A stretch of DNA of 64,000 nucleotides from Terfezia claveryi (Eukaryota > Ascomycota > Pezizomycetes > Pezizales > Pezizaceae), in the NCBI GenBank assembly GCA_015179025.1, contig WHUX01000103.1:124001-188000 (forward strand), read 5' to 3'. This document shows positions 4,131-37,934 of the stretch, piece by piece (position 1 is the stretch's first letter; each line of letters begins with the position of its first letter). The notes under the pieces were generated by a model. The model was given only the letters and a program-made list of their open reading frames with translations. It had not been told where the DNA came from and did not search any database. Position numbers and translations under genes: made by a program.

Positions 4131-4729
4131 AAATGAGAAAAAGAGCTGATATTAAACTAAATACATGACACACCGACTAAATAAATGATATCCCGACTAA
4201 ATCCATGATACCCCGACCCGTTCCCACCCGCTTTAATCAGATCTAAGCCACTTCTCGAGGCGTGATTGCTGCTTGCGTTTCATATTGAGGTCTGCCATGC
4301 GGTTGGTTAGAGTAGTAATAGACTCAATCAAGCCTGATGTTTCTGGTAGTGCTGCAGTACTGGGTGCGGTCTGAATAACATACAATTGAAGAACTTCAAG
4401 TGCATGGTTAACCTCCGTGCGGGTATCAAGATGTGGGACTTCTTTTAAGCTATAACACTGAATCCGAATACCCGTGTTAGTTGCTGTTGACCAGGGCAGA
4501 ATATCCGACTTTTTAGGCTGAACTCATACCCTGCTATGCTATCTCGGAGTGCCTGTACACACTAATCTGAATTTTGGGAAGGCGCCAACAAGTATGCATG
4601 CAATGTACAGTTATGCAGTTTTTAGCCCCTTAGCGTGTCATTTTTACTAACAAAAAAACTTGTCAGGAGCTTGCTATGTATTATCAGAGGATATGCGCTT
4701 ATATAGGATGCAAAGTCATAGGTTGACCT
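4131..4729. other. No gene recognised
   Basis: AT-rich sequence without a convincing open frame or repeat, lying between the copia relic and a pogo-like element. Confidence 0.5.
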
Positions 4730-16895: not shown

Positions 16896-16904
16896 CCACT
16901 CGTT
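16896..16904. repeat. Left 9-bp target-site duplication
   Basis: CCACTCGTT lies directly before the left end of the 13.8-kb element and is repeated exactly at 30748-30756, directly after its right end. Confidence 0.85.
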
Positions 16905-17053
16905 TGTTCTCGGTCCCAGACTCTTGGTGGTGATAACTTTTATCTGCAAGAGTCTGGTACTAAACTGCTCCGAAACTGCACGCGCTAGTATCTCCGAGTG
17001 TTTTGAGCTCGAAGATGCTAGCGTGTGCATAGCCTGTTTTCGGAGCTACTAGC
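16905..17053. repeat. Left terminal region: TIR plus nested hairpins
   Basis: Within the left end, CCAGACTCTT (16916-16925) pairs with AAGAGTCTGG (16948-16957). Next comes CTCCGAAA paired with TTTTCGGAG, enclosing a second stem of GCGCTAGT/GCTAGCG type. The same order of stems occurs, inverted, at 30595-30747, although the loop sequences differ. Conserved stems with diverged loops suggest protein-binding or structural sites at the transposon ends. Confidence 0.75.
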
Positions 17054-17196
17054 GTTGTTTTGAGCTGCATATTTTATAAGCATACACAATTGTCATAACG
17101 ACAACAGCAGAATAAATGTCTACCAAAACATTTGATTGCGGATGCATTTGTTTGGGATTTCGTTTATTTAGTGCATTGTATATTATCTCTAGTTTT

Positions 17197-17226
17197 GAGA
17201 GTTGGACAGGATTTGGTTTGACTCTC
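17197..17226. repeat. 30-nt palindrome, single copy
   Basis: GAGAGTTGGAC...GTTTGACTCTC, 30 nt. It lies about 225 bp beyond the stop codon of gene A. It is a variant of the palindrome that is arrayed at 22544-22963 and found singly at 26997-27026 and in the LTRs of element G3. Confidence 0.8.
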
Positions 17227-17450
17227 GATTTGAAATATGCTCTGCTACGTATCATCTCTACATTTCAGATCTTTTGGCACTCTCCATGAGCTATTCACAT
17301 CGAACCTCAGAATCCAGTTATTGGTGCATGTTTCTATAGCGTAGCAAGCTCAATATCAATCAAAAGTGGCATCTACTAATGGACCTTTCCTCTAAAAAGC
17401 TAATAACATACTACTAATGAGCCAAGAAATAAGAAATTAATCTTGTGTCG

Positions 17451-20400
17451 TTACTCCGGCATCAGATCGTCATCATTATCCACCTCTTCATTCATTGATA
17501 GCATCTTTCGTCCACCATAACAAGCCCACCTAACCCCCTTATCCTCCATCACCTGACTTTTTGTTGAATTTACCTGCTCCTTATCCCCACCTGGAATTGT
17601 AACTGTACTGGCCCCAACTTCCCCCTGATCAACTTCCCCCTGATTAACTTCCCCCTGATCCTCCATCACAGGACTTGTGGTTGAATTTACCTCACCCTTG
17701 TCCCCACCTGGAATTGTAAGTATATTCGCTGTTCTCGGATTTTCCGAGGCTACAATTTGAGAATTAGACCCAGATCTATCACGATCATGATGTAGTTCTT
17801 TGTTCCTCCCCCCTTGCTATTCCCTCTGAGACATAAGGCTTCTACTTCTTGCCCTGAGCCTATCTTCCTTTCCCTTGGCTCTATCCCTTCCCTCTTCGTT
17901 TTCCCGACACCTTCCCCGATCATGATCTCCTTCACGCTGGTCTCCACGTCTAGGGGAACCATAATCACCCCAATGACGATATCTGACTAGATGGTCAGTA
18001 TGATGTCGATCGCCATCCCTTCTACTACTCGAATAATGGGATCTTCTGTCAAGGTTATGGTAATCACCGCTTTCAGGTGAATACCAGTCAGAATTATCAT
18101 CATCGTATCCAGTGCGACCTTCCCAGCGTTCACTTCTATAGTAACCGCTTCCTTGTCGGCCATCTCTATATTCTTCCCTTCCACGCTTTGGTTCTCCCCT
18201 TCCACGCTTTGGTCCTTGAGCGTAACCATCTCTGCGGCTTCTTCCATATTCGTAGTTATCCACATAGTCCTCTTCTTCATCTCCGCCACTCATGCTTTCT
18301 TTATCGGGACTCCAATTCCTGGTTTTCAAAAAGCCACAGCCGCCCCTTCTGTCCCTTACATCCCTTCGACCTTCCGCATCTGCATCTACAGTTTTCTCTC
18401 GCTTAATTACAGTCTTCTCGGGCTTAATTTCGCGCTTGAATGAGAAATTAGGACTAACTTCTACACTTTCCTTGCGCTGAAAGTCCCTTTGGCGCCTAGG
18501 AGTCTCATTCATAGTCAATCCAATGGTAGCGCTACCCAAGTGAGCCAATCTTCCGCCACCTCCGGCAAGGGTTCCAGCAGCACTTGTCCTGGCGTTCTTT
18601 TGTTGCGCAGCCTACTCTTTTGTGTCTGCAAATTTCTTCCGCTCTTTGTGAGCCTCTTCAATCTTATTATTCAACTCTTGCCTCAGCAAATTCAGCCTTT
18701 CCATAGATTGAATGGCCTCGTCCATCGAGAGCTGCAACTCCGTGACCACGTGCTTATATCTTTCAATTTTTTTGTCGACTAGCAAGCATAGTTCATCATT
18801 GCGGTTTACAATCTCCTGACAAGCTAGCGCTGCCTACCGTGCACACCCCATAGGTCCCATCAATGCGATCCTAATTGCCTCACCTGACACATAACTACTA
18901 AATAGATGCATCAGCATGACTCTCCATCAAACCCCTGATTAGGAGAAACAAAAGACTTACTTTGCCATATCCGCCAAACTCAAACTAGGCCTCAACAGTT
19001 CAGCGATCCGATTGTCCAATACCCAATCTTCTTTGTTTTCCCTTTCGATCTCCTCGAATTAAGCTAATGTAACTAGGCCCGATTTGGTCATTTTCTCTTC
19101 TCCAAAAGCTCCAGCTGTCTCTATACTAAACTCATTTCCTAGGTCCATAAGCATGACTGGAATGTGTTCAAGGCCTCCTTCGAGAAACTGTTGCTCTTCT
19201 CCTTTCATGAATTTGAAGAAATTTTTATCCTGTTGCCCCTCGAGAGCCACCATGTTTTCACCATCCTCTCTAGTAAGATCAACAGTCTTCGCCGATTCCT
19301 TTTGACCCCCATCACTTCCATCACCATCCGCTACCTGAATAGTCTCTATATTCTATTTCTCGGGTTTGTCTGGGTTCCCCTCAACAACTTCACTTTCCTT
19401 TCCACTTCCATCTTCTTCTTTATCTGCATTCTCTCGGACTTGCTGGACGTCCCCACCATCATCCTCGAGTTTATTCCCACCAGAAGATCCAACCTTTCTT
19501 TCTTTCTCCACTTTTTCTTCAATTTTCTTGATCATCGCGTGATACTCTTCACAATTTTGATATGCTGTATAGGTCGTAGCACTTGACTCCCAAGCAGTTA
19601 CAGACTGTGGCCGCTCTGCTTTAGTACCAACGAAGGCCACTCACCAACATCCCGCGACGCTGTTGCGTCAAAGATTCTAATTCGGGTGGCATTACTGATA
19701 GCTTGTTGGTTGACCTTGCCTGTACTCAGTACTGTGATGGCCCTGACCAGCATTGCAAGTGTAGAAAGCCGCAATTCTTAGTAAGAGCCTCTCGCAGCGC
19801 TATCAGTGGATCTTCCGAAATTTCCGGGTGTGAGCTACAGTAGAGCATCTGTCACGAAGGTGACCGAGTACCAGATCGCATAATAATCCTGTAATACAAA
19901 ACTAGTTAGCTTAATACCCCAATCAAGAGAATCCTGAACTACCTTATGTCCCAATTCCAACCAACTTTCCACATCCGTAACCTTGAGTTTAGATAAACGT
20001 AACTTTCTTCCCCTCTCACTGCGCAGGGTGCGAGTATATTCCTTTCCAATAGTCCCATTGGTCCAATAGCGTGCTAACTTCAACAAAACCTCGAAGAATC
20101 TGTTTTGTAATTGATTCTGGTAATCCAATAAAGTATGCTTCTCCGAGGTCACATCTATCACACCATCTCTTGCTGGTCTAATGGTCTGGAGCATCTCTTC
20201 CAAGAATGAATCACTAAAGTTGTAGACTTTATACTACACCATAGCGATCAACCATCCTGCTTTCGCTCTCCATTCTTCGGGACTCTAAAATGTATGTGGT
20301 CAGTGAAATCCAAGATCATCCCATCCACCAAAAAAAAACAATACACAACTGACAGCAAGGGCATACATACGACCGAGGATACCAGCATGTCTACGAGAGG

Positions 20401-20601
20401 CTTTGGTAACCATTTCGTCATTTCAGCGGGCATGAAGGCTTCCAATATGCTATCATCATTGATATAGCCGTCTGGATCAATAAGCCCCAAATGCACTGGC
20501 ACTGGTGCTGGTAGAGTGTCGTCGGTTTTGGAACGCTTGCTTCTAGTCTGTGGCCTAACTGCAGGCTGTGAGACCTTCCGCTTTGCTGAGGGACTCGCCA
20601 T
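17451..20601 (-). pseudogene. Element gene A: large coiled-coil, RD/SR-rich protein, interrupted
   Basis: ATG at 20601 (MASPSAKRKVSQ) in a purine-rich context. Exon 1 ends at 20371; an 86-bp intron (20285-20370, GTATGT...TTTTAG) joins in phase 0 to exon 2. Exon 2 reads on past a TAG at a probable Trp codon, through KLARYWTNGTIGKEYTRTLR, to about 19835. A frame change, and perhaps another intron, follows. From about 19640 a single frame continues to 17451, broken only by TAG/TAA codons and one intron (about 18899-18960, GTAAGT donor). It has an acidic Lys/Glu region, a coiled coil near 18620-18780 (ELQLSMDEAIQSMERLNLLR) and an RD/RS/RG-rich tail (18550-17820). A repeat follows with two copies of IPGGDK and several of QGEV. 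The tail suggests RNA or nucleic-acid binding. I do not recognise the family. Confidence 0.55.
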
Positions 20602-21062
20602 TTTTTGTTTACTAAAGATACGCAGGGTTGTGCATGCAGGGGACGGAATTTGTGTTTAGATCATCGTTGAGAATGTGCACGCTTATGCTTATAAGAACGC
20701 TAATACCTGCGAAAATGGGCTAGGTATGCATGCGCTAGCAACGGGATACGCTAGGAGGGTGTTTGTGTTTTGTTTGTTGTTCTAGTGCGGAGATTTTTCA
20801 TTATGGCCTTGTGCATCAGGCCAACTGCATTTGAAGTTTTTTGTCTAGATTTTAGTTTGTGTTTTGGCCCGGGTTTTGGCCTGAAATATGTTAATATAAG
20901 TAGGGAGGGGGCGAGGAGTTACCCTTTCGATCTTTAGAACTGATCATACAGCAAGCGAATCTCATATTTCGATAATCATCCCTCACACTACTACGCTTGC
21001 ACTTCATTTGCATTCAGGAAATCACAGAAACAATATTGGGATCTACAGCTATATCTCGCCCG
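20602..21062. promoter_or_regulatory. Divergent promoter region of genes A and B
   Basis: About 460 bp separate the two start codons. A TATA-like TTAATATAAGTAGGG lies near 20888-20902, upstream of gene B. It is followed by a pyrimidine-rich, CA-containing leader (ATCATCCCTCACACTACTAC), typical of fungal core promoters. No TATA was picked for gene A. Confidence 0.4.
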
Positions 21063-22367
21063 ATGACTATCGCAGCAGGGGAACTACAAGTAAAGTTCAC
21101 AGAAATGATGAGGAGTGAGATCACGGTGAACACGCAATTTGAGGGTGCGGTAAAGTCAATTATTAGGGAAAAGGAATAATGGAACTTTCTCAAGGGAATT
21201 GCTAGATTAACACGACAAGCGGGGGAAAAAGTTGGAGCGTTGGCTGCAGCGCAGTCGACACTAATAGAAGCTGCAATGGAGGCGGAATTACAAGCATGGG
21301 GTGTTACAAGAGAAGACGCTCGAGATGAACTTAGGATGGATGAACTAAACAAGTTTGGCTAGGTGTACAAGGCATCAGTGAAACGGTGTCAGAACTACAA
21401 TATGCTAACAGAAAAGTTTTGGGGTCCAAACTGGATAGCATTGCTAGACAAGCTTCACCCGCCTTGGCCTTCTGTCGAGTTCGCTCGACAATGCTCTCTT
21501 GCAGCGGAACAACTATCATTCGATCATGAAATGGACCTAGTGAGAGACATTCTACCACACTTTGTAATAGAGATTGAGGATAAATAAAGCACGCCAAGAA
21601 CGCAGAAGGACGATTGGCTCATGGTCGAAGACATCAGATGGGTGCTACAGGATAGAGAACTACCACCTGTGTTGCCTACCGAACAAAAGAAATACCATGC
21701 AGAATACGTGGCAAAGATGACGAGTATTGGCGAGGCACAAGGAGTAACGAATACGAGTCAACTAGTCCAGAATGCTGAAGCAAGACAAGCTGGAATACAA
21801 GGGGGACCAGGACCAAGGGGGGCGGCACCAAGTGGAGGAAGTCCAGTGGTAGTAGCTGGAGGAAGTCAAGGGGTAGCAGCTGGAGGAAATCAAGGGGTAG
21901 CAGCTGGAGGAAGTCAAGGGGTAGGAGGAAGTCAAGAGGTAGCACAGGGTGGAGGAGTAGCTACAGGAACCAAGAGAAGTGGTAAGAGGGCGGGAGTAAG
22001 GTCCCGACAGGGAGGGGAGTTAACAAAGAGAAAAAGAGAGAGGACACCAGAGATGAAACTCCCAGCATATCAAAAAGTACGATTTGAGAATGCAGAAGAT
22101 GAAGATTGTGATCCAGAAACCCTGAGATTACTGGAAGTAGCACTACTTGAAGAAATGAGGGCCTTGGATGAAGAAACAAAGGAGGACATCGAGCTTATTG
22201 AGAAGATTAGAGAGATGCTTGGTACAGTTGGCAGTCAGAACGAAGATGAGTGGGTACCTGGAGACCGAATTGCATGCCGTTTGAGAATGCTCATCAGTGG
22301 ATTGAGAATGAAAGCAGTTCCAGTTAAGGAAGAAACTGCCAACGATGAAGACGGAGATGCGGAATAA
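21063..22367 (+). pseudogene. Element gene B: WG-x2-W / P-x-WP-x2-EF family protein
   Basis: A single frame of 434 codons runs from the first in-frame ATG (21063), interrupted by TAA near 21177, TAG at about 21360 and TAA at about 21585. Each is explicable as a Gln or Trp codon after one transition. The N-terminal half is predicted helical and contains WGPNWIALLDKL and PPWPSVEFARQ near 21420-21490. The middle is a Gly/Gln/Val repeat (AAGGSQGV and AAGGNQGV units, 21840-21960) followed by a basic patch (KRKRER) and an acidic helical C-terminus. The domain order and the WG..W...P.WP..EF motif recur in the 3' ORF of gypsy element G2 (50682-51851), so both belong to one family. Function unknown. 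Confidence 0.65.
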
Positions 22368-22514
22368 AGGGGGATTTTTCTTGGAAGTGTTGAGGAGGAT
22401 GTAAGGCGGACAGACATGGAGGGAATGGAGACAATTTAGTTTTTTGAATGTTTAGTTATTGTTTGAATTTTTGGGAACAGAATTGATTTTAGTTTGTCTT
22501 TATAACCCTCATTG

Positions 22515-22978
22515 TGCCTTTGTGGGTAGTAGCTTGTAATATTGAGAGTCGGACGGATTTTGGTTCGACTCTCAATATTACATTACGATTGGTACCTTTG
22601 TGGGTACTAGTAGCTTGTAATATTGAGAGTCGGACGGATTTTGGTTCGACTCTCAATATTACATTATGCTCGGTGCCTTTGTGGGTACTAGTAGCTTGTA
22701 ATATTGAGAGTCGGACGGATTTTGGTTCGACTCTCAATATTACATTACGCTCGGTGCCTTTGTGGGTACTAGTAGCTTGTAATATTGAGAGTCGGACGAA
22801 TTTTGGTTCGACTCTCAATATTACATTACGCTCGGTGCCTTTGTGGGTACTAGTAGCTTGTAATATTGAGAGTCGGACGGATTTTGGTTCGACTCTCAAT
22901 ATTACATTACGCTCGGTGCGTTTTTGTAATATTGAGAGTCGGACGGATTTTGGTTCGACTCTCAATATTACATTCTGG
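22515..22978. repeat. Array of six 30-nt palindromes in 81-bp units
   Basis: The core GAGAGTCGGAC...TTCGACTCTC starts at 22544, 22625, 22706, 22787, 22868 and 22934, a period of 81 bp with a shortened last unit. In each unit TGTAATATT before and AATATTACA after extend the palindrome to about 48 nt. Spacers carry GGTGCCTTTGTGGGTACTAG. The array lies 150 bp after the stop of gene B. Read as RNA on the + strand, the inner stem closes completely if G-U pairs are allowed. Confidence 0.9.
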
Positions 22979-23064
22979 GCTAGACATGGGAGAATCTATA
23001 CAAAGTGTTAGATGGAAAGGTGAGAGTGGAATGAGGAAAAGTTCAGCGTTTTTATATTAACATT

Positions 23065-24407
23065 CCGGACTCTAGATACAGTGATGCATAGGATCACAAC
23101 TATCCACTATATTATAGCTTGGGAGTGGTGATTTGACCTCGGAGGAGGCTTTTCTTTTCCTATTCATAGTGATCTATAAAACTAGAAAGCTAGAAAGCTA
23201 TTCCGGACTCGAGATGTATGTACATGATGGGTTGCTCTGTTCGCAGGGGAGTTATTAGCGGTGATGCATAGGATCACAACTATACACTATATTATAGCTT
23301 GGGAGTGGTGATTTGACCTCAGAGGAGGCTTTTCTTTTCCTATTCATAGTGATCTATAAAACTAGAAAGCTAGAAAGCTATTCCGGACTCGAGATGTACG
23401 TACATGATGGGTTGCTCTGTTCGCAGGGGAGTTATTAGCGGTGATGCATAGGATCACAACTATCCACTATATTATAGCTTGGGAGTGGTGATTTGACCTC
23501 GGAGGAGGCTTTTCTTTTCCTATTCATAGTGATCTATAAAACTAGAAAGCTAGAAAGCTATTCCGGACTCGAGATGTACGTACATGATGGGTTGCTCTGT
23601 TCGCAGGAGGGTTATTAGCGGTGATGCATAGGATCACAACTATCCACTATATTATAGCTTGGGAGTGGTGATTTGACCTCGGAGGAGGCTTTTCTTTTCC
23701 TATTCATAGTGATCTATAAAACTAGAAAGCTAGAAAGCTATTCCGGACTCAAGATGTACGTACATGATGGGTTGCTCTGTTCGCAGGAGGGTTATTAGTG
23801 GTGATGCATAGGATCACAACTATCCACTATATTATAGCTTGGGAGTGGTGATTTGACCTCGGAGGAGGCTTTTCTTTTCCTATTCATAGTGATCTATAAA
23901 ACTAGAAAGCTAGAAAGCTATTCCGGACTCGAGATGTACATACATGATGGGTTGCTCTGTTCGCGGGGGGTTATTAGCGGTGATGCATAGGATCACAACT
24001 ATCCTATATTATAGCTTGGGAGTGGTGATTTGACCTCGGAGGAGGCTTTTCTTTTCCTATTCATAGTGATCTATAAAACTAGAAAGCTAGAAAGCTATTC
24101 CGGACTCGAGATGTACGTACATGATGGGTTGCTCTGTTCGCGGGGGGGTTATTAGCGGTGATGCATAGGATCACAACTATCCACTATATTATAGCTTGGG
24201 AGTGGTGATTTGACCTCGGAGGAGGCTTTTCTTTTCCTATTCATAGTGATCTATAAAACTAGAAAGCTAGAAAGCTATTCCGGACTCGAGATGTACATAC
24301 ATGATGGGTTGCTCTGTTCGCGGGGGGGTTATTAGCGGTGATGCATAGGATCACAACTATCCACTATATTATAGCTTGGGAGTGGTGATTTGACCTCGGA
24401 GGAGGGG
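23065..24407. repeat. 180-bp tandem repeat array, seven full units plus a partial
   Basis: GTGATGCATAGGATCACAAC recurs at 23081, 23261, 23441, 23621, 23801, 23980, 24158 and 24338, a period of 178-180 bp. The units are almost identical; differences cluster in a G-run near TTCGCAGGGG and at GTACGTAC versus GTACATAC. Each unit contains a duplicated CTAGAAAG and a CGAGATGTACGTACATGATG palindrome. The last unit breaks off at about 24407. The array sits about 250 bp upstream of the helicase ATG, so it may act as promoter or binding-site repeats. Confidence 0.95.
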
Positions 24408-24661
24408 TTTCTTGGGCCAGAAATTTGGCCTTGATATTGAAATATTTATGAAAATTCTCCGAGAGTAATTAGGCTCAAGTGGATCTGTTTCTAGAGAATT
24501 GATTCACTCCACCTGTTTTGTGATAGATCTTGGGGCATGGGTATAGCGGGCTTGGCATTTTGGATTGTTGTACTCAACTGACGTTTTGCGGTCCGCTTCA
24601 ATACCTGTATCAAATAGCGTACAACTCAACATCAACCCTAGACATAGGCTTCGGAGTACCT

Positions 24662-26853
24662 ATGGCATCCGAGGGCGAGGTAAGTAATAACAGCCTCACC
24701 TTAAAATCGTTTTCCAGGGAGCTTTTCAAACGGTCGGCTGAGTTGCCTTCGGACCTCTCCATTTTCGGTGGCATCAGGGCTACGATTGGGCAAGTGGCAG
24801 CGCAAACTAGCATGGCACGTGGGGTTACACTTCGAGCTATATCCTGGCAAGTCGAGGCAGCAGCCCGATTCCTAGAGGGCAAAGATCAGATTGTTATATC
24901 TAGAACTGGGGACGGGAAGACATTCTGCTTTATATTAGCAGCTTTGTGTGCACTAGAGCGGACAATTATGGTTTTAACACCTCTGATTGCTCTACAAGAT
25001 TCTCATGTGAGTTGAAGCCAAAACTCTTCCGTTCTCGGGTTAACGAGGATATACAGGTCTCAACGGCACAGAGGTATGGACTCAAGGCTGTCTCTTTGAA
25101 CGCCAAATCCATTCAAGTTGATCCTACGATAGTTAGCAAAATTATTTCTGGCTATTACCAAGTCGTCTTCATTTGTCTAGAAGTATTGACCGGGAACAAT
25201 GAAATGTTTCTGAGATTCGCCAAGTCAAAGGTATTCTCTTCTCGACTGTTGGGTTTCGTAATAGATGAGGTGCATCTCTGCCATCAATGGAGGAACTTCA
25301 CAGCAGATTATATAGGTGTTGGGTTATTACGAATTTTCTTTCCCAAAGTCGCTTTCATGGGGTTATCAGCAACTATCCCTCTACATGTCCGGGGATTCAT
25401 ACATACAACCTTGCGCATGCCTAAACAATGTGATCTAATACAACGATCAATTAACAGAGAGAACCTCTGTCTATTTGCATATCCTATTCATTCTCTATTA
25501 CATAAGTTTGAGGAAATCAAGTTTTTGATACCTCGTAGGTTGATATCTATTCACTCCACTCACCAAATCAATATTCCGAAAACCATGGTATTCGTTGATG
25601 GCCTCCGAGATACGTGCAACATTGCAATAGAGCTATCCAAGCTTATACCTAAGCATATGTTCGAAGAATATCCAGAGGCTATATTAGAGTACAGCACTGC
25701 TATAACAAGCGAGAAAAGAGAATATAATTTGCAGAGATTCATAGAGGGTATATGTTGTATACTTGTCTGTACAGAGGCATGTGGTATGGGTATTGATGTG
25801 CGAGATATAGAACGAATTATACAGTAGAGATTGTCCCCAAGATGCAACCTAACTACACTCTATCAACGCTTCGGTCGTGCTGCAAGGGACCCGGAAATCC
25901 AGGGCATTGGTATCCTTTTCTATACTCCCTACGCCGAGATTACCAGAAACCATGACAGTAATGCTCAGATTTATAAAAGAGCATGGGATGATCCCCTTTA
26001 TGAACAAGTATCTCAGGATATTATCCGCTTTGATATGGGCCTTACTTCTTCAATGGCTCCACGGTCACAGAAACGCAAAGCAGATGCACTAGGTGAGTTA
26101 TTTAGGGAAGCGACCCACTCAGGTTCTGGTGCTGTTGAAGCATCGCAAGATAAACCTGGTTTTACCAAATCTGTACAACCAGGTACCTTCCAAAAGACAC
26201 AAGCACTGAAGCTACCATTAATCTGCAGAGCTATACTCTCCTTTATTAATACTGCCAAGTGTAGACGGCATATCATTCTTAACTATTTCAATGATACCTC
26301 AACACATCCTCATACCCATCCATGCTGTAATCATTGCATGCAAGATGATATCCCTTCTGAGATCAAACGTTTGATTCCGATGACAGTTTACACATTGGGA
26401 ACTGTTGTCAAAACAAAGGGAACTCGGCCTACGAAGCTACCGGAGCATACTAAGGAGGCACTGTATGAACATATAATCACTCTGCGAAATCAGCATTGGA
26501 AGGATCAGAAAGGGAATAATAGATTTGTACCATATTCTGCGAGTGCCCTCTTAACTCAAAAAGAAACCGAAGCGATCGTGGCACGAGCATCTAAGATAAA
26601 ACAACTAGACCAAGTTCATCAAACTTTATTGAAAAGGCCCGCTACCTATAATGGGAAAATGAAACAAGAGTTCTTCGACTGGGTCTTTGACGGAATCCAA
26701 ACAATTGTCAATGATCAGCAGTATATGATACAAAACACTTTAGAGGACACCCAAACGCAGTCGGAACAACACCTTCCACTAACAGAGATATTAGGGAATC
26801 CAATTCACATTAATGTGCCCATAATATCAACCGCGCAAGCCTCACAAGAATGA
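24662..26853 (+). pseudogene. Element gene C: RecQ-type superfamily 2 DNA helicase
   Basis: Exon 1 is 24662-25006 and exon 2 is 25057-26853, with a 50-bp phase-0 intron (GTGAGT...ATACAG, GTTAAC branch site). The product is about 713 residues. Motifs in order: SRTGDGKT (I, ATP binding), LTPLIALQ (Ia), DEVHLCHQW (II, DEVH), GLSATI (III), KTMVFVDG (IV), a motif V region ending CGMGIDVRDIERIIQ, and QRFGRAARD (VI). A RecQ zinc-binding pattern follows (CRRHIILNYF...CCNHC). A 3'-5' helicase of the RecQ family is therefore clear. One TAG (25825-25827) follows IIQ where RecQ proteins usually have Trp, so TGG-to-TAG is likely. The C-terminal 200 residues are unlike anything I recognise. In the element it could assist excision or replication. 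Confidence 0.85.
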
Positions 26854-26996
26854 GTAGATTCACACAATCCCCAGCTGATAAAGAAGAAAAAAACTCGCTC
26901 AGACAAAGGAAAGAGACGAGGACCACGAAATGCAGGCACCCAAGAACAAAACCAATGATAGGAAAGCACAACACAAACAATCAACCAAGTAATTCC

Positions 26997-27026
26997 GAGA
27001 GTCGAACCAAAATCCATCCGACTCTC
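26997..27026. repeat. 30-nt palindrome between convergent genes C and D
   Basis: GAGAGTCGAAC...TCCGACTCTC, the inverted orientation of the array motif at 22544, between the stops of C (26853) and D (27425). The flanks GTAATT and AAATTAC extend it. Confidence 0.85.
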
Positions 27027-27424
27027 AAAATTACAAACCTCTGACATCATCTTATGCCCTTTCAGCGACTCTGTGCGACACCTTATCCCATACATTTATC
27101 TCATTAACCCTCATTGCCCAAATCACTATCCCCTAACATGCTCAATGCATCTTCATCATCAGACATCCCGAGACTATTTATCTCAAATCCCTCCTCCTCT
27201 CTCTGTCCTTCTCGCTATCTCTCTCGACCTTTAATTCCCCATCCATACTCCACTTCACCATAATCAACATCACTATCCTCTTCATCTTCCGAATCCTCTC
27301 TAATATCAACCAAACCTATTCCTTCTTCCTCCGGGGCCATATCCATATTCTGCTCCATTTCCAAATCTATATTCTCATACTCATTACCGGGGGCTCCAGG
27401 TCGTTCTCGCAGATAACGCTCCTC
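27027..27424. other. 3' region between genes C and D
   Basis: About 400 bp without a supported gene. It reads as acidic, low-complexity protein on the minus strand (CTCTT/CATCTTC-rich on +) and may be a further 3' part of gene D beyond its present stop. Confidence 0.35.
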
Positions 27425-30400
27425 CTACTCATGGAACAGTCGATCTTCACTACATTCCGAGCTTGCATCATCGTCTCCTCTTATTCCTCCCACTCTTTCT
27501 TTCATTATGTCATCAAGGAAGGAACCTCGTGTGATTATCCGTTCACCAAGTGTAAACAGGTCCAAGGCTGGCTTAATCTCAACAGGATTATGAACCGAAC
27601 CTGCTTTCCAGCGTCCCTTTCGGAAATTACATACATCATGCTGCAAAAGCGTCCTGAAAACAACTTTACAATCCTCTTTATCGTCCACGGTTCCATGTTT
27701 ATGGGAGATATCCGAAACACCTACATACACGTAAGCTTCTTGGTACCTAAGAATTTCTAGTATACTTACTAGCGAGCGGACTGATGTACTTACTAGCGGA
27801 CTGATGTACTGCCTCCTGCACCGACCGGAATAAGAATGCATTCCTGGATACTGATTTCAAAAAAAAAACCTTACTTTGCCAGTTCTTGTTCGGATTATGT
27901 TGATCTTTGACTTTTCGCACCAATAACTCATTTACCTTATCAATACCCATGAATTTCATTTCTCGGCCACTCAAATTGACCAGGATATTGTTATCCCAAA
28001 TATACCTGAATCTATCCATCCAAACTACCTCTTTATCGATTAACAGATTTGCAGTTGCCTTAGCGTAATGATGTTTCCCAGCCCCACTGAACCACACGCA
28101 TAAAGGTTCTATATTTTTTAGCAAAGCTCCCGAGTCACCAGCACTACGAGAATCAGTATGTCTCAACTTCATATAGATATTTGCTCCAACAAAATGATAA
28201 AAATGTCTTGCAATCGGACAACTTACCTAACATTATAATGCAAGTCTCTTATCACGAAATAATGTTGCAAAAACAGCAGAAAGTTCTCATATGCTAAATC
28301 CCTTTCCCTATAAGCCACCCTCTTTATGAATGCATTCCTATCAAGCTCATCTCCGTGTCTATCCTTCTTCAAATGCTTCTCCTTCAACATTGATCCCCAC
28401 TCTTTAATACCCGCTTCTCTGCTTTCTCTCTCATAATTCTCACTGTTCTAGGAACTAAGAATCTTTGACGACTTTCCTGCACAAATCTACGTAATTATCT
28501 ACTTTTTTCAACTCTCTCTCGAGTTCCTCCAAACAACTTGCCTTAACAATATTAGCATACTATTCTCGAAATTCCAGGTCTCTTATACCTTCAATTCTGA
28601 CGCTACCACTGCTAACGCATGTCCCTCTCCACAGATATTAGTGAATCTCTTACAGGCATTGTATTCGGACATCCCTGCCGTAACTCCTTTAACCGCCAAA
28701 ACATACTTCAACTGACATAGAGAGCCGGGGTCCATTCCATCTTTCCTTCCCCAATGTCCCCGAAACAATAAGTCTTCTGCCGCCATTTCTAAATAGAAAA
28801 TCCCGTCCAGTTTTGCCAGGTAATTTAACTTGTTATGCTCAAAGTCTCTCACACGTAGCTGCTTCAATGCTGACACTTTCAACATAGTTCCCAAATCTCC
28901 CACATGAAGAACCACTCTCCCAGCCAACCTTAACGAGCTCAATCCTGTTTGCTCCAACAGTTCATCAATCACTTCCGCACTGCCTTGAATGGACGTCTCA
29001 TCCTTCTCCAAGGTATCCAAGGCATTAACATCTATTCTTACACACGGAATCCTATGAATCCATTCAAACAATGGTCGGGTGTGCCCAGGTTCCCTTGCAG
29101 CCAACTCCTGCATGACTATGGGAAAATACTTCCACAATATATCGCTCAAATGGACAACTAACCTATTGGGCATATGCTCTGCATATGAGTCCTTTGACAA
29201 CAACCAATATTTATCGATTTTCGTATAGTCTGGACAACTGGCAAATAAGAACCGTCCGTCTAGGCCAGGAACCCCTTCTTCATATGCCTGAAGATCCATA
29301 TAAATCCTCATCTTCTCATCAAATTCTCTCCAACTATTATCTCTAAGATCCGCTCCAATCGTGGCCTCGCCATCTGCCTCTTCTCCATTGTCCAAACCAA
29401 GTTCTACCGATCTCAATCTCTTCTCTGGGCTTTCTTCTGTCTCGACTCTGACCACTGGATGAATTTTCTCAGGTGCTTCTGGCTTCAGTATATGTAGGAA
29501 CTACATAGCAGCACAGGTATACTGAGTCAGCACCCTTTGATTTTTCATACTTTGTCCTGTTTTATTCTCAAACATCGCATTATTATCCCACATAAGCCCG
29601 AACGCATGTCCCTGAATGATACGCTTCTTAATCCGTTCTTTATTCGCGCTTCCATAGCTTTCATAGCATCGCATATAGTGGTATATCCAACACTCAGGCC
29701 CACTCGATTTAAAACACCGATCACCCTTTTAGGAACCCCGCAAGCCTGCAGATAATATCCAATCGGGGTCTGTAAACTGTTGCACATCCTGGATCTCCTA
29801 AATGCAATCATGCTCATAACTACAGTACTTATCAACAATTTATTTCTACTCTTTCTACCCCTTTCACCCCCACCACCACCACTCTTCTTCCTTTTTCTCA
29901 AATTCGAATTGTCTAGCATCGTATCCCTGTCGCTTCCGACTGAGCATACTCCATTGATGAGCTCATATAGGCGCGGACAGTTCTGACGAAACCTCCTACC
30001 AAGTTCTTCAAAGTTGAAATTGGTTGCAATGTCAGGCGTTATCGCCTGTACCGGGCATTTAGCAATGGGTTGCTTGCAATAGGCCCCCAACTCAAGGTCC
30101 AAAATTTGCTGAATGAGCCTCCAGACACCCCCACCTAAACGCCTCTTCACTTCGGAGATTGCTGTTGCCGAGTTCTGTTTCCTTTTGCTGCTACAATTGA
30201 TTACCGATACCATCCTCTCAAACACCTCCTCGACACCATTATTGTCTATGAAGGACCTTTGCTTCTCTCGCATGCGCTTTGACTTTGCTCCAAGGCATCT
30301 AGTAACAAATAGTCTGAGGTCCATGTTACTGCTTCTCAGTAATTCACAAATCTTGAAGACCCTCGGTTCCCATATTTCCTCCTCAGCATCCAATGCAATT

Positions 30401-30447
30401 GCATCCCATTCACCATCTATAACAGTGAACTGTATTTCTGCAATAAC
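27425..30447 (-). pseudogene. Element gene D: DUF6589-like protein, candidate transposase
   Basis: Open from 30447; no ATG is secure. The N-terminal part is helical with a Lys/Gly-rich linker near 29880. Then come family landmarks: a MIAFRRSRMCNSLQTPIGYY region (29830-29760), CGVPKRVIGVLNRVGLSVGY, and after a one-base frame change near 29645, LMWDNNAMFENKTGQ. Next is a TAG at a probable Trp, then VVLHVGDLGTMLKV (about 28900) and a hydrophobic GIFYLEMAAEDLLFRGHWG. After a 65-bp intron (28162-28226), LCVWFSGAGKHHYAKATANL and YIWDNNILVNLSGREMKFMG follow. The order DN...GD...NYA...LVNLSG is what I know of the fungal DUF6589 family. A further 37-bp intron near 27770 may connect to the acidic C-terminus. 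A catalytic Asp/Asp/Glu role is only an inference. Confidence 0.65.
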
Positions 30448-30594
30448 CTAATTCACTGATCTCCCGATGCACTTGAAGATGGTTATTGGTTCTGATTAGC
30501 AGTCTGGATTTCGCCGTGTTCCGGGATGTTTTTGTTGAGATGTTCAAAAATAAATATTTACGTTCCAAAACAAATACTGTATTACATATTCTGC

Positions 30595-30747
30595 TCCGAA
30601 GCCACTAGCGTATTGCATAGTTTCCACGCTAGTTCCTCCGAGCTCGGAGGAACTAGCGTGGCAATTTCGGAGTAGGTTACTACCAGACTCTTAACCGTAG
30701 CACTAAAATAATTACGCGTAGGTACTAAGAGTCTGGTCACGAGAGCA
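30595..30747. repeat. Right terminal region: TIR plus nested hairpins
   Basis: Inverse of the left end. AAGAGTCTGG (30727-30736) pairs with CCAGACTCTT (30683-30692). Inside, CACGCTAGTTCCTCCGAG and its exact inverse form an 18-bp perfect stem at 30625-30660. TTCGGAG/CTCCGAA stems flank it. Confidence 0.75.
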
Positions 30748-30756
30748 CCACTCGTT
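30748..30756. repeat. Right 9-bp target-site duplication
   Basis: CCACTCGTT, identical to 16896-16904. Confidence 0.85.
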
Positions 30757-30957
30757 CACGTCTACAGGCGCCGGAAATACCTTTAACGAATTGACGACTT
30801 TTAAACTGGACTTGCACCTGGAACACTGCCAATTTGGTTTGGTACGCACAGTGCACAAACCTCCATAGCAAATACTTCATTCGGGGCTTCGGGGTGAGCT
30901 AAACCGCCGCAGTTTCAAATACCATACCTCACTCCCTTTCCGCACCTCGCATTCAAC

Positions 30958-33024
30958 CTGGAACCAGTTTCCGCCGCCATCGGAATCACCGGGTTCGCTT
31001 TCTCACTCTTTGCGACTTGTATCAGAGGCTTCCTACTCCTTTCATCTGCGCAAAACCTCGGTCAGGACGCCTCCACACTACGATGTATGCTTCATCTAGA
31101 AGAATACCGCCTTGTGCAGTGGGGTGAGCAGTCGGGATTGTTTCGCTCCCAGGCAGAGATGGTGGCCGGGGTGTTGCACGAGCGGCTAAATCGGGGCTTA
31201 ATTGAGGAGACGCTGTCTGAGCTGGCAACACTGCTTACAGATGCAGATGCAATGAAGCAGAAGTATGGGTTGGAGATTGCAGCGGAGAAGGGTGCGGGGA
31301 AGTTGGTGCCGGAGGATGTCCCGGAGTATGTTGCTCGAGGAGGAGTATTGGGAGGTGCTGTGAGTGCGAAAAAGCGGACTAAGATATTGTATGTTGCGGG
31401 TTTGTTTAAGGATATTCCCCGGAAAATGATATGGATTGTGGCCGATAAAGCAGATTTTGAAAACCTGATTAGGCAGATTGGATTTTTTGTACAGAGGCTG
31501 GTGGATTTGTTGGATGGTCAGCAGCAAGAGATCATGAGGAATGATATTAGGGTGTTGTTGTTGAATGTTGTGGCGTTGAATGATAAACTCGATGAATTGA
31601 AGGCGATTCAGAGCAGTGTGGAGTTGGTGGTGGGGCAGGATAACCCAATGGCATCTTCAGCAGCAGTGAAGCATCTCCGGATGCAGCTTTTGGATGCATA
31701 TGACCAGGCTCCTCCACCATATCTCGCCAACGCCTGTGGACAGCACTTGACCCCCATGGACTCCCCCTCGCACATGTCGGTCTATTCCACCTCTCCAAAT
31801 AGGAATGGCAATAGCGGTGACCGTAGCTCCCTACGATACGAATATGGAACAAGGCCGCGATCAAAGTCTCCAGCTAGACCTCTTAATTACCGGAGGAGAA
31901 ACCCGCTCCCTACAGTTGACCCGAGCCTTATATCTTGCAAGTCTGCTGAGGTTCCTCGTCCGACTCGAGAGACTGCACTCTACACAACACAGCCTGATTG
32001 CCTGGAACCGATCTATATTGAGTGGAAATCCATCAACAAACCATTACGGTCAAAAATCCGCCCCCGAGTCGAGAATCTTGCACACCTACTGCATGCTCCT
32101 AAACACTCGTCTTTCCGCACATTACACTGCAGGGGGTTCTTTGAAGACTACGAGAAGGCTCAATATGCATTTGTTTTTGACCGACCCGCGGAAGCTGACC
32201 CTAATAAGTCCCCGGTCAGTTTATTGCAGATGTTCCGGTTGAAAAATTTTCTTCCATCTCAAACACAGCGGGTGGGGTTGGCGCGAATTTTGGCAAGCGC
32301 GTTGAGTCAGTTGCACAGTGCTGGCTGGCTGCATAAGTCGCTGAGGGCAGACAACATCCTTTTCTTCCCTTCCCAGCCAAAGCCGGGGAGGCACAAGTGG
32401 GGAATAAGCCTTGATCAGCCGTATTTAGTCGGCTATGAGTATGCCCGGTTCGACGGAACCAGTGAGGTAAGCGAGCAGCCATCATCGAATCCGGAGCATG
32501 ATATTTATCGGCATCCCTTGGCTATTGGTGATTTTTCTGAAAGCTTCAATCGGCTCTTTGATATTTACTCACTGGGCCTGATATTCCTCGAGATTGCGCA
32601 ATGGCGCCCCCTGCGGAAGATTGTTTCAAAGGTCGTCCCAGAGTTAGCCTCGATTGCGGGGAATAACGGCGGGTCTGCATCAAAATCGTCGAAATTAAAA
32701 AAACCCATAGCTGGTGTGCTGAATTCTGGCTCTGCTCCGGTGCCCCACGTGCCATTGACACAGATTATGAAGATTAGGGAGTGGTTGCTAGACCCGACGA
32801 CGGAGGAAAATATGCCGGGAACTTTGGATTTCTTGATGGGTGAGATATACCGCGATGTGGTGATGAGGTGTCTGAAGGGCGATTTGGTAGACCGGAGCAG
32901 CGACGAAGTCGAGGAAATGAGGGAAGAGGATGAGTATGAGGATTTATCGGATTTGGGGGGTGCTAGGGTCACGGAGGGTTTTTTTGTGAAGGTTGTGCGG
33001 GAACTGGAGAGGTGTGTAGTTTAG
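30958..33024 (+). CDS. HeLo-domain protein with C-terminal kinase-like (pseudokinase) domain
   Basis: The first ATG (31087) gives 645 residues, but the same frame is open upstream to 30898. It codes the conserved HeLo N-terminus EPVSAAIGITGFAFSLFATC directly after a CTG (30958) with A at -3 and G at +4. I therefore choose 30958 (688 residues), either as a near-cognate start or as a lost ATG. Residues 1-210 are a HeLo (prion-inhibition) domain with LHLEEYRLVQWGEQSGLF. A Ser/Arg/Pro linker follows. Residues about 320-600 are kinase-like: LHKSLRADNILFF replaces the HRD loop and LVGYEYAR replaces DFG, so catalysis is doubtful. Such HeLo/kinase-like proteins belong to fungal incompatibility and cell-death signalling, where HeLo acts at membranes. 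An acidic stretch (EEMREEDEYEDLSD) lies near the end. The frame is uninterrupted and GC-rich, unlike the transposons. The 13.8-kb element ends about 200 bp upstream. Confidence 0.8.
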   Translation: MEPVSAAIGITGFAFSLFATCIRGFLLLSSAQNLGQDASTLRCMLHLEEYRLVQWGEQSGLFRSQAEMVAGVLHERLNRGLIEETLSELATLLTDADAMKQKYGLEIAAEKGAGKLVPEDVPEYVARGGVLGGAVSAKKRTKILYVAGLFKDIPRKMIWIVADKADFENLIRQIGFFVQRLVDLLDGQQQEIMRNDIRVLLLNVVALNDKLDELKAIQSSVELVVGQDNPMASSAAVKHLRMQLLDAYDQAPPPYLANACGQHLTPMDSPSHMSVYSTSPNRNGNSGDRSSLRYEYGTRPRSKSPARPLNYRRRNPLPTVDPSLISCKSAEVPRPTRETALYTTQPDCLEPIYIEWKSINKPLRSKIRPRVENLAHLLHAPKHSSFRTLHCRGFFEDYEKAQYAFVFDRPAEADPNKSPVSLLQMFRLKNFLPSQTQRVGLARILASALSQLHSAGWLHKSLRADNILFFPSQPKPGRHKWGISLDQPYLVGYEYARFDGTSEVSEQPSSNPEHDIYRHPLAIGDFSESFNRLFDIYSLGLIFLEIAQWRPLRKIVSKVVPELASIAGNNGGSASKSSKLKKPIAGVLNSGSAPVPHVPLTQIMKIREWLLDPTTEENMPGTLDFLMGEIYRDVVMRCLKGDLVDRSSDEVEEMREEDEYEDLSDLGGARVTEGFFVKVVRELERCVV

Positions 33025-35793
33025 AAAATTGTATCCGAATATTTTTATATATATACGTATCTTCAGAGCATATGTGTTAGCTCAATAGAGTAGTTTATTG
33101 CTAGAATTCCAGCATGCATATACATATGCTGATACTTCGTGATTCGTAGAACTTGTAATTGAATAAAAATTCAGGTGTTGTAATACAGCTGGTCGTGGGA
33201 GCCAGCCGCAATTATATCGTGACCGCTCCTGATCTTGAAAACCTCGTGGGGGGACGGGGGAGGAGGAGACTGGAAGGTCAAAATTCGAGAGCTAACCAGA
33301 GTATGTTTCATTAAAATATCTAGCCAGTCTCGGAGATATAGGCAATAGCTATATACTGTAGTCCCGGAGCCATTATCTTACAATACAGAATTTCAACACT
33401 GGAAAATTTACCGTTTGCAGCTTGCTATGTGGTTCATATTGCTTTGTGTGAGTTCTGGTTTGTGATCGTCTAGGGCGATTTCCAAGGGAGCTCGAATCAG
33501 GAAGGATGGGATCTCGGTAGCCAGTCATTGAAGACCAATAATGTATGGGGGTCACGTACGCAAGCACGATATAGAAAATTTTTCCCGATATCGATAATGC
33601 TTAAGACTAGTTAGCCCAGATGCTTCTATTTCGTAACTACGAGACTGTCCCATGTCGCACCCAAGGTCTCCAGAACTATGTACTATACGTCACACATACC
33701 ACTCCAAAACTATGCTCAAATACTGGTACCGTATTAATTCACAAGTAAGACAGTATCACTCGGCAGGATAGTATTGGTGTTTAAGACAGGGCACTATGTA
33801 ACAGCCTAAGCTTGGCCGAGATATCCGAATCGTTGTATTAGACAACAAATTTTTCATATATGACAGTAGTGATAGTGTGGTAATCTTGACGTTGACTGAC
33901 GCAGCCGGTTTCTTACATTCATCACCAACCTCACTTGTTCCAACGTCAATGCCGCTGGTACCTCGTGCTGGACCTAATGCGCAAACAAGAAGCCAAAAAC
34001 CTCGAGCAACCTTTGTTTTGCAACTGTAGAAGTCTGGCAAGCGGACACAGATTCCACCACTATCAAAGGCGGATGCTGAAGGACCTGATGTGTGGCACAA
34101 GATATTGTACACTTCAATGTTACGTGAGGCTGGAAAGGATGCAACGGCTTTGAATACTCCAGTCCGAGGACATCAATCCCGGGATTTCAAACTGGCAACT
34201 ACCTCCCTGAAGACCAACCCGACCTGCCAATAGACAGAGAATATGAAGGTTCCGACCTTGAGTTTTTTAGATGATGATGAGGAGGAGGTGGATGGAAGTG
34301 ATGATGAGCAGGGAGAGTATATTAATGAAGAAGAGGCTGTTCAATATGCCAAGATTACGCTTGGAGGAGATCGTGTAACAAGATATCAATTATGCCACTA
34401 TAGGTGTCTTTCCCAAAAGTTTTTTATAAGACAGTATCTCGTATATAAGCTAGTATCGGTAATGACTATTCTCCAAAAAAAAGAAAAAGAAAGATCAGAG
34501 TCAGTGCGTACAAATGTGCATAGGTAAAGGGCGATGTTGAAGTTTGACCAGCAACTATGGTTTTCATGGCTAATGCTTACTAGAATAGTCTACTTTCCAC
34601 AACATATTTCTTATTCGCGTTCCATACCCATAGCATATCCTCCTTACACAGCGTCTTATTGGAGAGTACTTTCTTATACGTTATTACTTTCTGGTCCGCG
34701 AGATTTTACTAAAGATAACGACGCTGAAGGATTTACCTACCTGATGCGTAGGATAGCATATGCGCGCTGCTCGACATTTAAACGGGAGCAATAGCAATGT
34801 GAGAGACATCCGGGATAACTGGACATTACGAGGACCTTGAGGGTTAATCGCAGTCGGAACTCTTCAATGGGGCATGATATCTTTTTTTTTAAAATTTTTT
34901 CTTTAATACTAATTACTCCTATTCGGTCCCAGTGAGGACTTTGAGGAGCCACCCGGAAACCCGGTGAATTCACGGACAAGGCAAGTTAATCTGCCAGGTC
35001 CAACGCTAAATACACCGCAATATAACGAATGACATGAATCTGTTACGAGACTAAGTAATAGATGAAAAAGAAGAAGAATAGCAGTGGCCCTCATGTGTCT
35101 GGTTCTTCTGAGGCATCGTGAAGTATAGGATAGGTGGTATGCTCCTTCACTATCAGTTTTTAACTTTGGTTTTAGGGGAATGTTGATTTCAGCTAGGAAT
35201 TGTTGTGCCCAGGCTGCATCCTTATATTCCAAGTTTATCACATGACTAAGGGTAACGAAATTTACTTATGATCTTATGCTTCGAGCGGAGCTGGGGATGG
35301 ATATGGCCTGGGCTTCCCGACATTTCAGCAAAAGAAACGGGTGTATTGGCAGTGTAAGCCTCGGATAGTAGGATATAAGGGGAGGAAGCAGGGATTAGTT
35401 GTAGTCGAAACTGATGCGGTCATGGGACATCTTATGGAGAATTTAAGGGTGAAGAGTTGGGGAATTATTGCGTAATAAGTATTTTTTTCCTGCCAAGGTA
35501 AATTCCTCAAATTTATCGGCGCTGTTTCAATTCAATGAGAGGGTTCTCGGCCAGCGAGGGGGCCATTACTGTCAATTGCATGGAAATGGGAATCTGGGGC
35601 TTGGAGTATAGTCTAATCCTATAATCACTGTAATAATAAGTTCAGGTAATAGAAGTCCTTCTGTAGGGTCATTTACCTTCAGTAAAGTAACAGGAAAGTA
35701 GAAATGCAAAGCGTCCAAGCGACGTAGTTAGTATTGCCTTAATTAACTAGCGAATGCAACGTGCAGCACTCCACATATTCGACTACGAGTGTT
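33025..35793. other. Non-coding stretch
   Basis: No supported gene. There are short open frames, among them an acidic one at 34243-34527 (LDDDEEEVDGSDDEQGEY) without a recognisable domain. The A/T junction at 34881-34931 followed by ATTACTCCTATTCGGTCCCA repeats the motif at 7117. Confidence 0.45.
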
Positions 35794-35933
35794 CGATATT
35801 CTCGGCGTTGTGCAATGGGCCCCCCTGTGGAAGATTGTGTGAAAAGTCATCCAGAGCTAGCCTCGATCGCAAAATTATGGTGGGACTGCGTCGAGATCAT
35901 CGAAGTTTGAAAAGTCAATACATAGGTAGTGTG
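35794..35933 (+). pseudogene. Relic of a paralogue of the HeLo/kinase-like gene
   Basis: About 140 bp align by eye with 32575-32720 of the upstream gene. Shared stretches include TTG(T/C)GCAATGG, CCCCCTG, GGAAGATTGT, CCAGAG(C/T)TAGCCTCGAT and ATCGAAGTT/ATCGTCGAAATT. Indels and stops break the frame. The relic ends exactly where the LTR of element G1 begins, so G1 inserted into it. Confidence 0.65.
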
Positions 35934-36109
35934 TGTAAGGTGGAAGTCACATGAGATTGCTACATGGGTGGAAACCTCACATGAGAGAAGGGACGGTGCT
36001 CCCTCTTTGGGAAGTGAGGACTGAGGCCCTGGAGGAAGCTTGTACTATAAAGACCTTGAGACTTGTAGATAGAGAGAATCCATCCTGCATTACTCATGTC
36101 TCTTTTACA
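35934..36109 (+). repeat. Candidate 5' LTR of G1
   Basis: Begins TGTAAGGTGG and ends CTTTTACA, giving a TGTAA/TTACA inverted end. It holds a TATA-like ACTATAAAG near 36044. A possible primer-binding site TTGGTAGCAATAC follows after two bases. No second copy is present in the window to confirm it. Confidence 0.5.
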
Positions 36110-36352
36110 ACTTGGTAGCAATACTTCGTTTGAATGGGGAACCCCCTTATTACTTCTATTTTTCGAGAGACTCTCTCCTATCTTAGATTCACAAGTAAGC
36201 TCCCTACTGAGCTAGAGCTCTAGAGCACGAGACTGAGCGGAGCTCTGGCAGAGATTGAGAGTCTGAAAACCTTGAGACATTAAAGAACAACCACTTGAAA
36301 AAGACTATATGGGAGTGTTGGGATTTAGCCTCAGAAACTCTACTTAAAGAAA

Positions 36353-37700
36353 ATGTCAGAAGTAAGGATGTCTTGCCCCTTAGGTCTTCCTAAAACACCT
36401 CCGGGAACGGGAAGAACAGGAACCAGACCAAACGAGACCAGAAATCCTGAACAAGACATATATTCCCTATTGCCATCAGGCAACAAAGATGAAAGTAAGG
36501 ATAGTGAACCTCCAGAATCAAACGACAGAGAAAATAGAGACGATCAACTACTACTAGTGACAAAATTTACGACAAGAACCCTGATGTTCCCTCCTCCTCA
36601 GACAAAAACCCCTTGGACGGCACCCACCCGAAACGTCATATCGAGACAACCTTTGGAAGAGATCAGAACTACTCCTGAAGTGAGAAACAAAGAAGGAAGA
36701 ACAACAAAGGCACAGGACAACCTTAAAGCTCAACAAGATTTACACATAAGTGATAACATGGAGAACTTTAAGAAGTGGTTCATGGAACTGGAAAGGAAGA
36801 GGAACGAGGAAAGAAAGAAAGCTAACAGTAGGCTGAGGGAAGAAATCAGCAAGTTAGGAGACAGAATATTTTGCTTAGAATGGGGGAAAGGAGACGTCCC
36901 CACCACTCCACTAAGTAGTACCGGTATGTCCGCGGGGAATGTATCTGTAGTTGTAGCACATGCAAACATCTGGAACCCCAGACCAGAAGGAATAAGGATG
37001 GGGAATAGAATCAATGACCTTATGAGAAGACAGGAGGGAAGCATGGAGTATCAACTAGATAGGGAAGAATCTATGGATGAAGTCGATGCATCACACAGGG
37101 AACAGCTGGCAGACTGTCACCGGGGAACAAGAAGACATCAGAACGAACCAATAACTGAACACCCATATGCGAATGACTATAAAGGATCACTAAAAGTAGA
37201 GGATGTTGGAGAGTTCAGTAGGAAAGATGTTGAATACTATATACGGTCCCTGGAAGTAATTTCGGAAGTCTACGGGGAAGACAGAGTGATTGCTGTCCTG
37301 CCGAGATGTATGAAAGGAGTGGCAAAGGTATGGTTCATATCTTTATCCCCGAATAATTATTCCATAATAAGGTTCTTGCATGGATGGGCCTACCTATTGA
37401 GAGATGCTTTTGGAGAAGATCTGCAGAGGAGTAAGGAGAGAGCTGAGGCAAGAATCTTCCAACCATAGAAGGAGACGATGGAGGAATACTTCTATGACAA
37501 GTTAGCTCTGCACAGAAGAGCAGAAGCAGATATTACGGAAGTAGAAGTAATTAGAGAAATATGGAAAGAGCTATCGCCACATGCATCAGATCTGATGGTG
37601 GTCTCATAGAAATAACATAACCAGAGGGAATTCAGAGATGAGCTGATCCAAAGATTTAAGATGATGGAAAAGGCGAAAAGAAGAGGAGGAAGAAATCATT
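36353..37700 (+). pseudogene. gag: G1 gag
   Basis: ATG at 36353 opens 371 codons, and the gag frame carries on past a TAG (37466). The N-terminus is Pro/Thr/Glu-rich and low-complexity. A charged coiled coil follows (FMELERKRNEERKKANSRLR). The retrotransposon gag core is readable from 37190: EDVGEFSRKDVEYYIRSLEV, then KGVAKVWFISLS and EEYFYDKLALHRRAEADI. No zinc knuckle is readable before frames are lost near 37700. Confidence 0.6.
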
Positions 37701-37934
37701 ATAAGAAAGAAGAATAAAGGAAGAGACGGAAAATACAATAGTAGTGGTAAAAGTCAATTCTGATACGACCCCCGACAGACTCGAGACAGAGGTGGAAGCA
37801 CTGGGAAATAGATAAAGAGTGAAACAAAAGGGGAGATAGGTAAAAAGAAAAAGGACTCGGATAAAGAGCAGGAAAAGAACTACGACAAGGAAGGGAAAAA
37901 GAGTGAATCTGATCCAGCAAGAAAGTTATATAAA

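Follow-up and report, generated by a model that had tools for sequence, protein, structure and literature searches.

A decayed multigene DNA transposon with DUF6589 and RecQ genes in Terfezia claveryi, probably of the AcademH type

Structure of the element in the window

In a 64-kb stretch of the Terfezia claveryi genome (64,000 nucleotides of contig WHUX01000103.1, here called the window), we found an element of 13,843 bp at positions 16905-30747 that is bounded by exact 9-bp repeats. The repeat, CCACTCGTT, has two copies and no others in the window; these start at 16896 and 30748 and adjoin TGTTCTCGG... on the left and, on the opposite strand, TGCTCTCGT... on the right. The termini read TGTTCTCGGTCCCAGACTCTT... 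on the left and TGCTCTCGTGACCAGACTCTT... inward from the right, and they are identical at 17 of 21 positions (P of about 1e-7 at 25% random identity), the same count as that given in an earlier note on this DNA. A 10-mer, CCAGACTCTT, lies twice in each end in inverted orientation, at 16916/16948 on the left and 30683/30727 on the right. With up to one mismatch allowed, it has no further copy within the element and five in the other 50 kb of the window. From left to right, the genes are A(-), B(+), RecQ(+), and D(-); A and B are divergent, RecQ and D are convergent, and B is separated from RecQ by a palindrome array and a 180-bp satellite. The large multigene TIR transposon with a 9-bp duplication that the earlier note had described was recovered with its ends, its two divergent and two convergent genes, and both arrays. 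Its features are as follows.

16896..16904, no strand: left target-site duplication, CCACTCGTT; exact repeat of 30748-30756, these two being the only copies in the window
16905..16957, + strand: left terminus, TIR and inverted 10-mer pair; same end in 30 left-end loci, a few diverged or offset
17451..20601, - strand: gene A, several exons from ORFs, without a Pfam family; frame interrupted
21063..22367, + strand: gene B, from ORFs, without a Pfam family; frame interrupted
22514..22974, no strand: array of palindromic 81-bp units
23081..24413, no strand: 180-bp satellite of 7.4 units, of which short copies retain a diverged piece
24662..26853, + strand: RecQ helicase gene; exon 1 24662-25006, intron 25007-25056, exon 2 from 25057
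27104..30447, - strand: gene D, for a DUF6589 protein that is likely a DDE transposase; broken frame; exon model from the copy on contig C154
30683..30747, - strand: right terminus, TIR and inverted 10-mer pair; same end in 30 right-end loci
30748..30756, no strand: right target-site duplication, CCACTCGTT; pairs with 16896..16904

The window copy is complete but decayed, since the frames of D, A, and B are broken and RecQ carries an in-frame TAG at codon 372. None of the long copies described below was shown to have all its genes intact. Over 13,637 aligned positions, the copies on C6 and C154 show 341 differences, of which 303 are transitions, and the base after the C/T differences is mostly A or G. 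Transitions in such a context are expected of RIP or methylation decay. The RIP indices of the element resemble those of its own flanks, so it is the transition excess, and not these indices, that suggests decay by RIP.

Other repeats were seen in the window. A 2.3-kb inverted repeat at 39291-41545, 86% self-complementary, encloses an AT-rich tandem array at 40143-40734, and two pairs of dispersed direct repeats, 54035-54533/59768-60266 and 42940-43394/52035-52489, are 97% and 94% identical, respectively.

Copies of the element and their insertion sites

The assembly containing the window comprises 72.56 Mb in 794 contigs, to which the C numbers refer. The left 200 bp of the element had at least 62 matches in the genome and the right 200 bp at least 69, weak and self-complementary ones included, with the best 40 candidates scored for each end. 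Pairing 30 left with 30 right ends that lie on the same contig, face each other, and are at most 20 kb apart gave 27 pairings, of which 17 have exact 9-bp flanks (C6, C597, C446, C412, C379, C297, C62, C24, C784, C218, C286:8079, C46:644431, C63, C26, C10, C151, and C17), 3 have flanks that differ at one base (C42, C154, and C286:26919), and 7 have unmatched flanks (C268, C46:245538, C773, C2, two on C201, and the internal end of the C62 copy). The exact pairings represent 16 sites, because C597 and C379 lie at one common site. The duplications vary in sequence between copies, as the earlier note had anticipated for further copies with the same ends. A search of the genome with the end motif gave 241 matches, compared with 3 for a reversed control pattern. 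These counts, together with the recurrence of the same ends next to different 9-bp duplications, place the element far above chance.

Five copies are long (C6, 13.8 kb; C154, 13.7 kb; C151, 13.1 kb; C42, 14.0 kb; and C62, 16.1 kb), and all of them have exact or one-mismatch duplications. The remaining pairings span 1.2 to 5.2 kb, and in the short copies compared with the window, some 300 bp of the left end, some 240 bp of the right end, and a diverged part of the satellite are retained. Short elements sharing these ends are common, which would suit a host segment with genes A to D that came to be flanked by two of them, by chance or as a composite. This explanation has a negligible probability and is refuted by the five long copies, which share the genes at different sites (C62 without A and B) within exact or one-mismatch duplications.

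Several copies have unusual structures. Inside the short copy at C597:2802-5405 lie a right end, at 390, and an inverted left end, at 2351, which are separated by a long inverted pair of 40-bp repeat arrays. The 16-kb copy at C62:2035-18104 begins like a short copy and has an internal right end at 4179. On C201, the flank CGAGGCTAC is shared by ends of two different copies (C201:355155 and C201:397834), a right end and a left end that lie about 43 kb from each other in inverted orientation, as after an inversion between copies; their reciprocal flanks are unmatched. Very small end-only derivatives, in which a left and a right end face each other at a distance of only about 90 bp, lie at C1:160419-160511 and C56:120127-120217.

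The earlier note had also called for empty sites, and one was found for a relative of the window copy. The copy at C297:1605-5279 is absent from C412, where the joined flanks are identical at 249 of 249 positions and the 9 bp are present once. Where they were read, C297 and C412 have 1,937 aligned columns with 0 mismatches and 2 gaps, and given this near-identity, the difference looks like presence/absence between haplotypes or recent duplicates. The site of the window copy itself had no empty counterpart among the best 40 of 183 candidates. The copy at C286:8079 is inserted in a repeat, and 39 of the 40 matches listed, two of which were read, represent the uninterrupted repeat across the site. 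A tandem repeat like that at 40143-40747 of the window surrounds the sites of C286:26919 and C154, its units spanning the junction, and the C17 site had a match on one side only.

A second family was found at six loci (C313, C792, C224, C784, C31, and C778), whose D is about 50% identical. Homology ends at one sharp point in five of them, C313 diverging earlier, and the sequence there ends in a form related to the window's right terminus, which reads ...CTAGAGTCTTGGCACGAGAACA at three of these five loci and has transitions in C792 and C31. A left end was found at position 37963 of C31, which gives an element at 24866-37963 that contains D, RecQ, and A-like stretches and whose flanks match at 8 of 9 bases. 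Short end pairs of this family have flanks matching at 8/9 (C116), 7/9 (C84), and 5/9 (C190) bases. The second family has its end motif in common with the first. The right flank of the first-family copy at C412:219118-224285 contains a second-family right end, so the two families nest in each other.

Gene D, RecQ, and the accessory genes

A Pfam scan of ten ORF pieces, a profile check that the earlier note had proposed for the four proteins, identified DUF6589 in two pieces of D (E values of 2.8e-24 and 6.5e-21) and DEAD, Helicase_C, and RecQ_Zn_bind domains in RecQ; the scanned pieces of A and B had no Pfam family above the cut-off. RecQ has the motifs GDGK, DEVH, SAT, and QRFGRAAR, and a profile of its relatives matches the RecQ, WRN, and BLM structures by sequence. 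For D, the exon model was made in C154, where the third intron has no in-frame acceptor, and the search query ended before this intron. The closest proteins to D are from Terfezia boudieri (96, 57, and 52% identity), Kalaharituber pfeilii (47%), and two metagenomic sources (36 and 51%). Pattern searches with two short patterns confirmed no relatives of D in viral contigs (138 pattern stretches) or in prokaryote genome contigs (180 pattern stretches), DUF6589 was found in 0 of 14 control genomes, and solved structures gave no sequence match to D.

A D-D-E pattern, in the contexts DN, GD, and EN, recurs in the D of C154, in the DUF6589 proteins P0002, P0003, P0004, and P0005, and at the loci C268, C235, C300, C313, and C792; the corresponding residues of P0004 are D261, D448, and E635. 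C242 has the DN, and the GD and EN were not found in its decayed frames; P0001, P0006, and P0007 stop before the EN, P0007 before the GD as well. As these acids are kept in divergent relatives, D is probably a DDE transposase, a reading to which the linkage and mobility described here also contribute. The earlier note's assignment of D as the transposase is accordingly likely, and that of RecQ as accessory is supported as well. Two AlphaFold2 models of seven sequences each, with P0004 or P0001 first, had pLDDT values of 37.0 and 41.4; both models show a strand immediately ahead of the first and second acids, and the P0004 model shows a helix holding the third, at confidences too low to count.

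DUF6589 and RecQ genes are linked beyond the first family. At 17 of the 22 DUF6589 loci in this genome, a RecQ-like stretch lies within 12 kb (largest gap, 10,024), and the two genes are convergent in all 17. The chance expectation of a RecQ neighbour is about 1% per locus, and the binomial P of about 3e-29, with loci treated as independent, overstates the independence of the 17 loci because copies of a family are not independent. The linked loci comprise five of family 1, four of family 2, and eight others. The five DUF6589 loci without RecQ nearby are C108, C224, C784, C92, and C325; family-2 homology is lost within the stretch read in C224 and C784, and C92 has 21 stops. Of the 35 RecQ-like loci, 18 lack a neighbouring DUF6589 gene. 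A metagenomic DUF6589 protein (P0006, 51%) and a RecQ protein (P0009, 47%) are each on a 9,631-base contig from the same source, probably one and the same contig.

RecQ stretches are present in all five long copies. Gene A, for which one stretch was searched, and the C-terminal part of gene B are each present in four of the five. Relatives of A with 37 to 38% identity lie on C778, C792, and C31, and a weak A-like stretch lies on C218. Relatives of the C-terminal part of B occur at many other loci; those of 21588-22367 lie on many further contigs, and several of them have long open frames. No B match among the 77 listed has a DUF6589 locus within 12 kb unless it belongs to a family-1 copy, and B may belong to another repeat family. 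The C62 copy, with no match for either A or B, retains D and RecQ and carries an exact 9-bp duplication. Barring a loss of A and B since its insertion, this indicates that D and RecQ form the core of the element.

The same copy bears on whether A, or RecQ, catalyses transposition with D as a conserved partner, which we consider very improbable. A as the catalyst would fit the presence of A relatives in the second family and the AlphaFold2 models, whose low pLDDT leaves the fold of D unsupported. It is at odds with the exact duplication of C62, again barring later loss of A, and the conserved acid pattern of D argues against both A and RecQ in this role. Moreover, RecQ helicases are not known to generate target duplications, which also speaks against RecQ.

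Relation to known transposons and a possible mechanism

Several known systems were compared with the element. MULE/MuDR elements likewise have duplications of about 9 bp (range, 8 to 11), and RecQ is not known as a usual part of them; no MULE domain was found in the ORF pieces scanned, DUF6589 being the only family above the cut-off in the D pieces, P0002, P0004, P0005, and P0006. Kolobok elements duplicate TTAA, whereas the duplications here are 9 bp and varied, and membership in KolobokH was rejected on this trait. KolobokH has been described as a fungal DDE transposon that carries RecQ (PMC9587614), which the present element probably is as well. Starships and Helitrons are likewise large multigene fungal elements, and Helitrons have a helicase. 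Helitrons lack TIRs and duplications (PMC4522978), whereas the element has TIRs, 9-bp duplications, and a RecQ-type helicase, with no Rep/Pif1 domain in the ten ORF pieces. The same pieces contained no tyrosine-recombinase captain domain of Starships.

The AcademH lineage of Academ DNA transposons was reportedly described by Kojima in 2020 (Mob DNA 11:15). According to citing papers, AcademH comprises helicase-bearing DNA transposons of fungi and animals (PMC10799480, PMC10045372). Its duplications are 9 or 10 bp, those of AcademX being 3 or 4 bp, and a relation to helicase and nuclease is given (PMC10045372); DEAD and Helicase_C domains are listed for AcademH and KolobokH, and AcademH is reported in Basidiomycota, Ascomycota, and Mucoromycota (PMC10799480). 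The element resembles AcademH so described, by architecture, in its DEAD/Helicase_C helicase, its 9-bp duplications within the 9-to-10-bp range, and its Ascomycota host, the RecQ-type helicase recurring in every long copy and the duplications being those of the 20 exact or one-mismatch pairings. It is a probable AcademH-type transposon on this architecture, and because of the match with these descriptions, the suggestion in the earlier note of a new class is not supported.

We consider it probable, overall, that the window element is a long, gene-bearing, decayed copy of an AcademH-type TIR transposon family with a DUF6589 transposase and a RecQ helper. Common ends, 9-bp duplications, short relatives, an empty site, and the convergent RecQ-DUF6589 linkage favor this reading, and the pairings without a duplication (7/27), the DUF6589 loci without RecQ (5/22), and the RecQ-like loci without DUF6589 (18/35) count against it. 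It is unlikely, by comparison, that the DUF6589-RecQ transposons are a separate superfamily, unrelated to Academ and converging with AcademH only on the helicase and the 9-bp duplications. They would then be large TIR transposons with convergent genes and paired inverted putative binding sites, in up to ten lineages of one truffle-like genome. Such a superfamily would accord with Pfam, which gives DUF6589 alone, the likeness to AcademH being one of architecture, and with KolobokH as a case of RecQ taken up independently by another lineage (PMC9587614). The coincidence of three reported AcademH traits, namely, the DEAD/Helicase_C helicase, duplications of 9 or 10 bp, and occurrence in Ascomycota, argues for the AcademH-type reading instead.

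From the observed end structure and duplications, we infer how an AcademH-type element of this kind might move. D, as an RNase H-like DDE transposase, would bind the paired inverted 10-mers at each end and draw the ends together, cut or nick them at TG/CA, and insert the element at a 9-bp staggered target cut, the repair of which would produce the duplication. RecQ may unwind the ends or help with strand transfer or gap repair, the roles of A and B would be accessory, and short copies could have been moved in trans.

DUF6589, unnamed in Pfam, thus gains a probable function as a DDE transposase. A literature search found no mention of DUF6589, so its link to transposons may be new in print. Since DUF6589 genes adjoin a convergent RecQ gene at every linked locus across divergent lineages of one genome, a role of RecQ in DNA transposition becomes testable. 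Caution is also advisable with RecQ-like genes in fungal annotations, which may be transposon genes; the RecQ-like gene on C788, with an open frame of 1,403 residues and no DUF6589 neighbour, is presumably a host RecQ.
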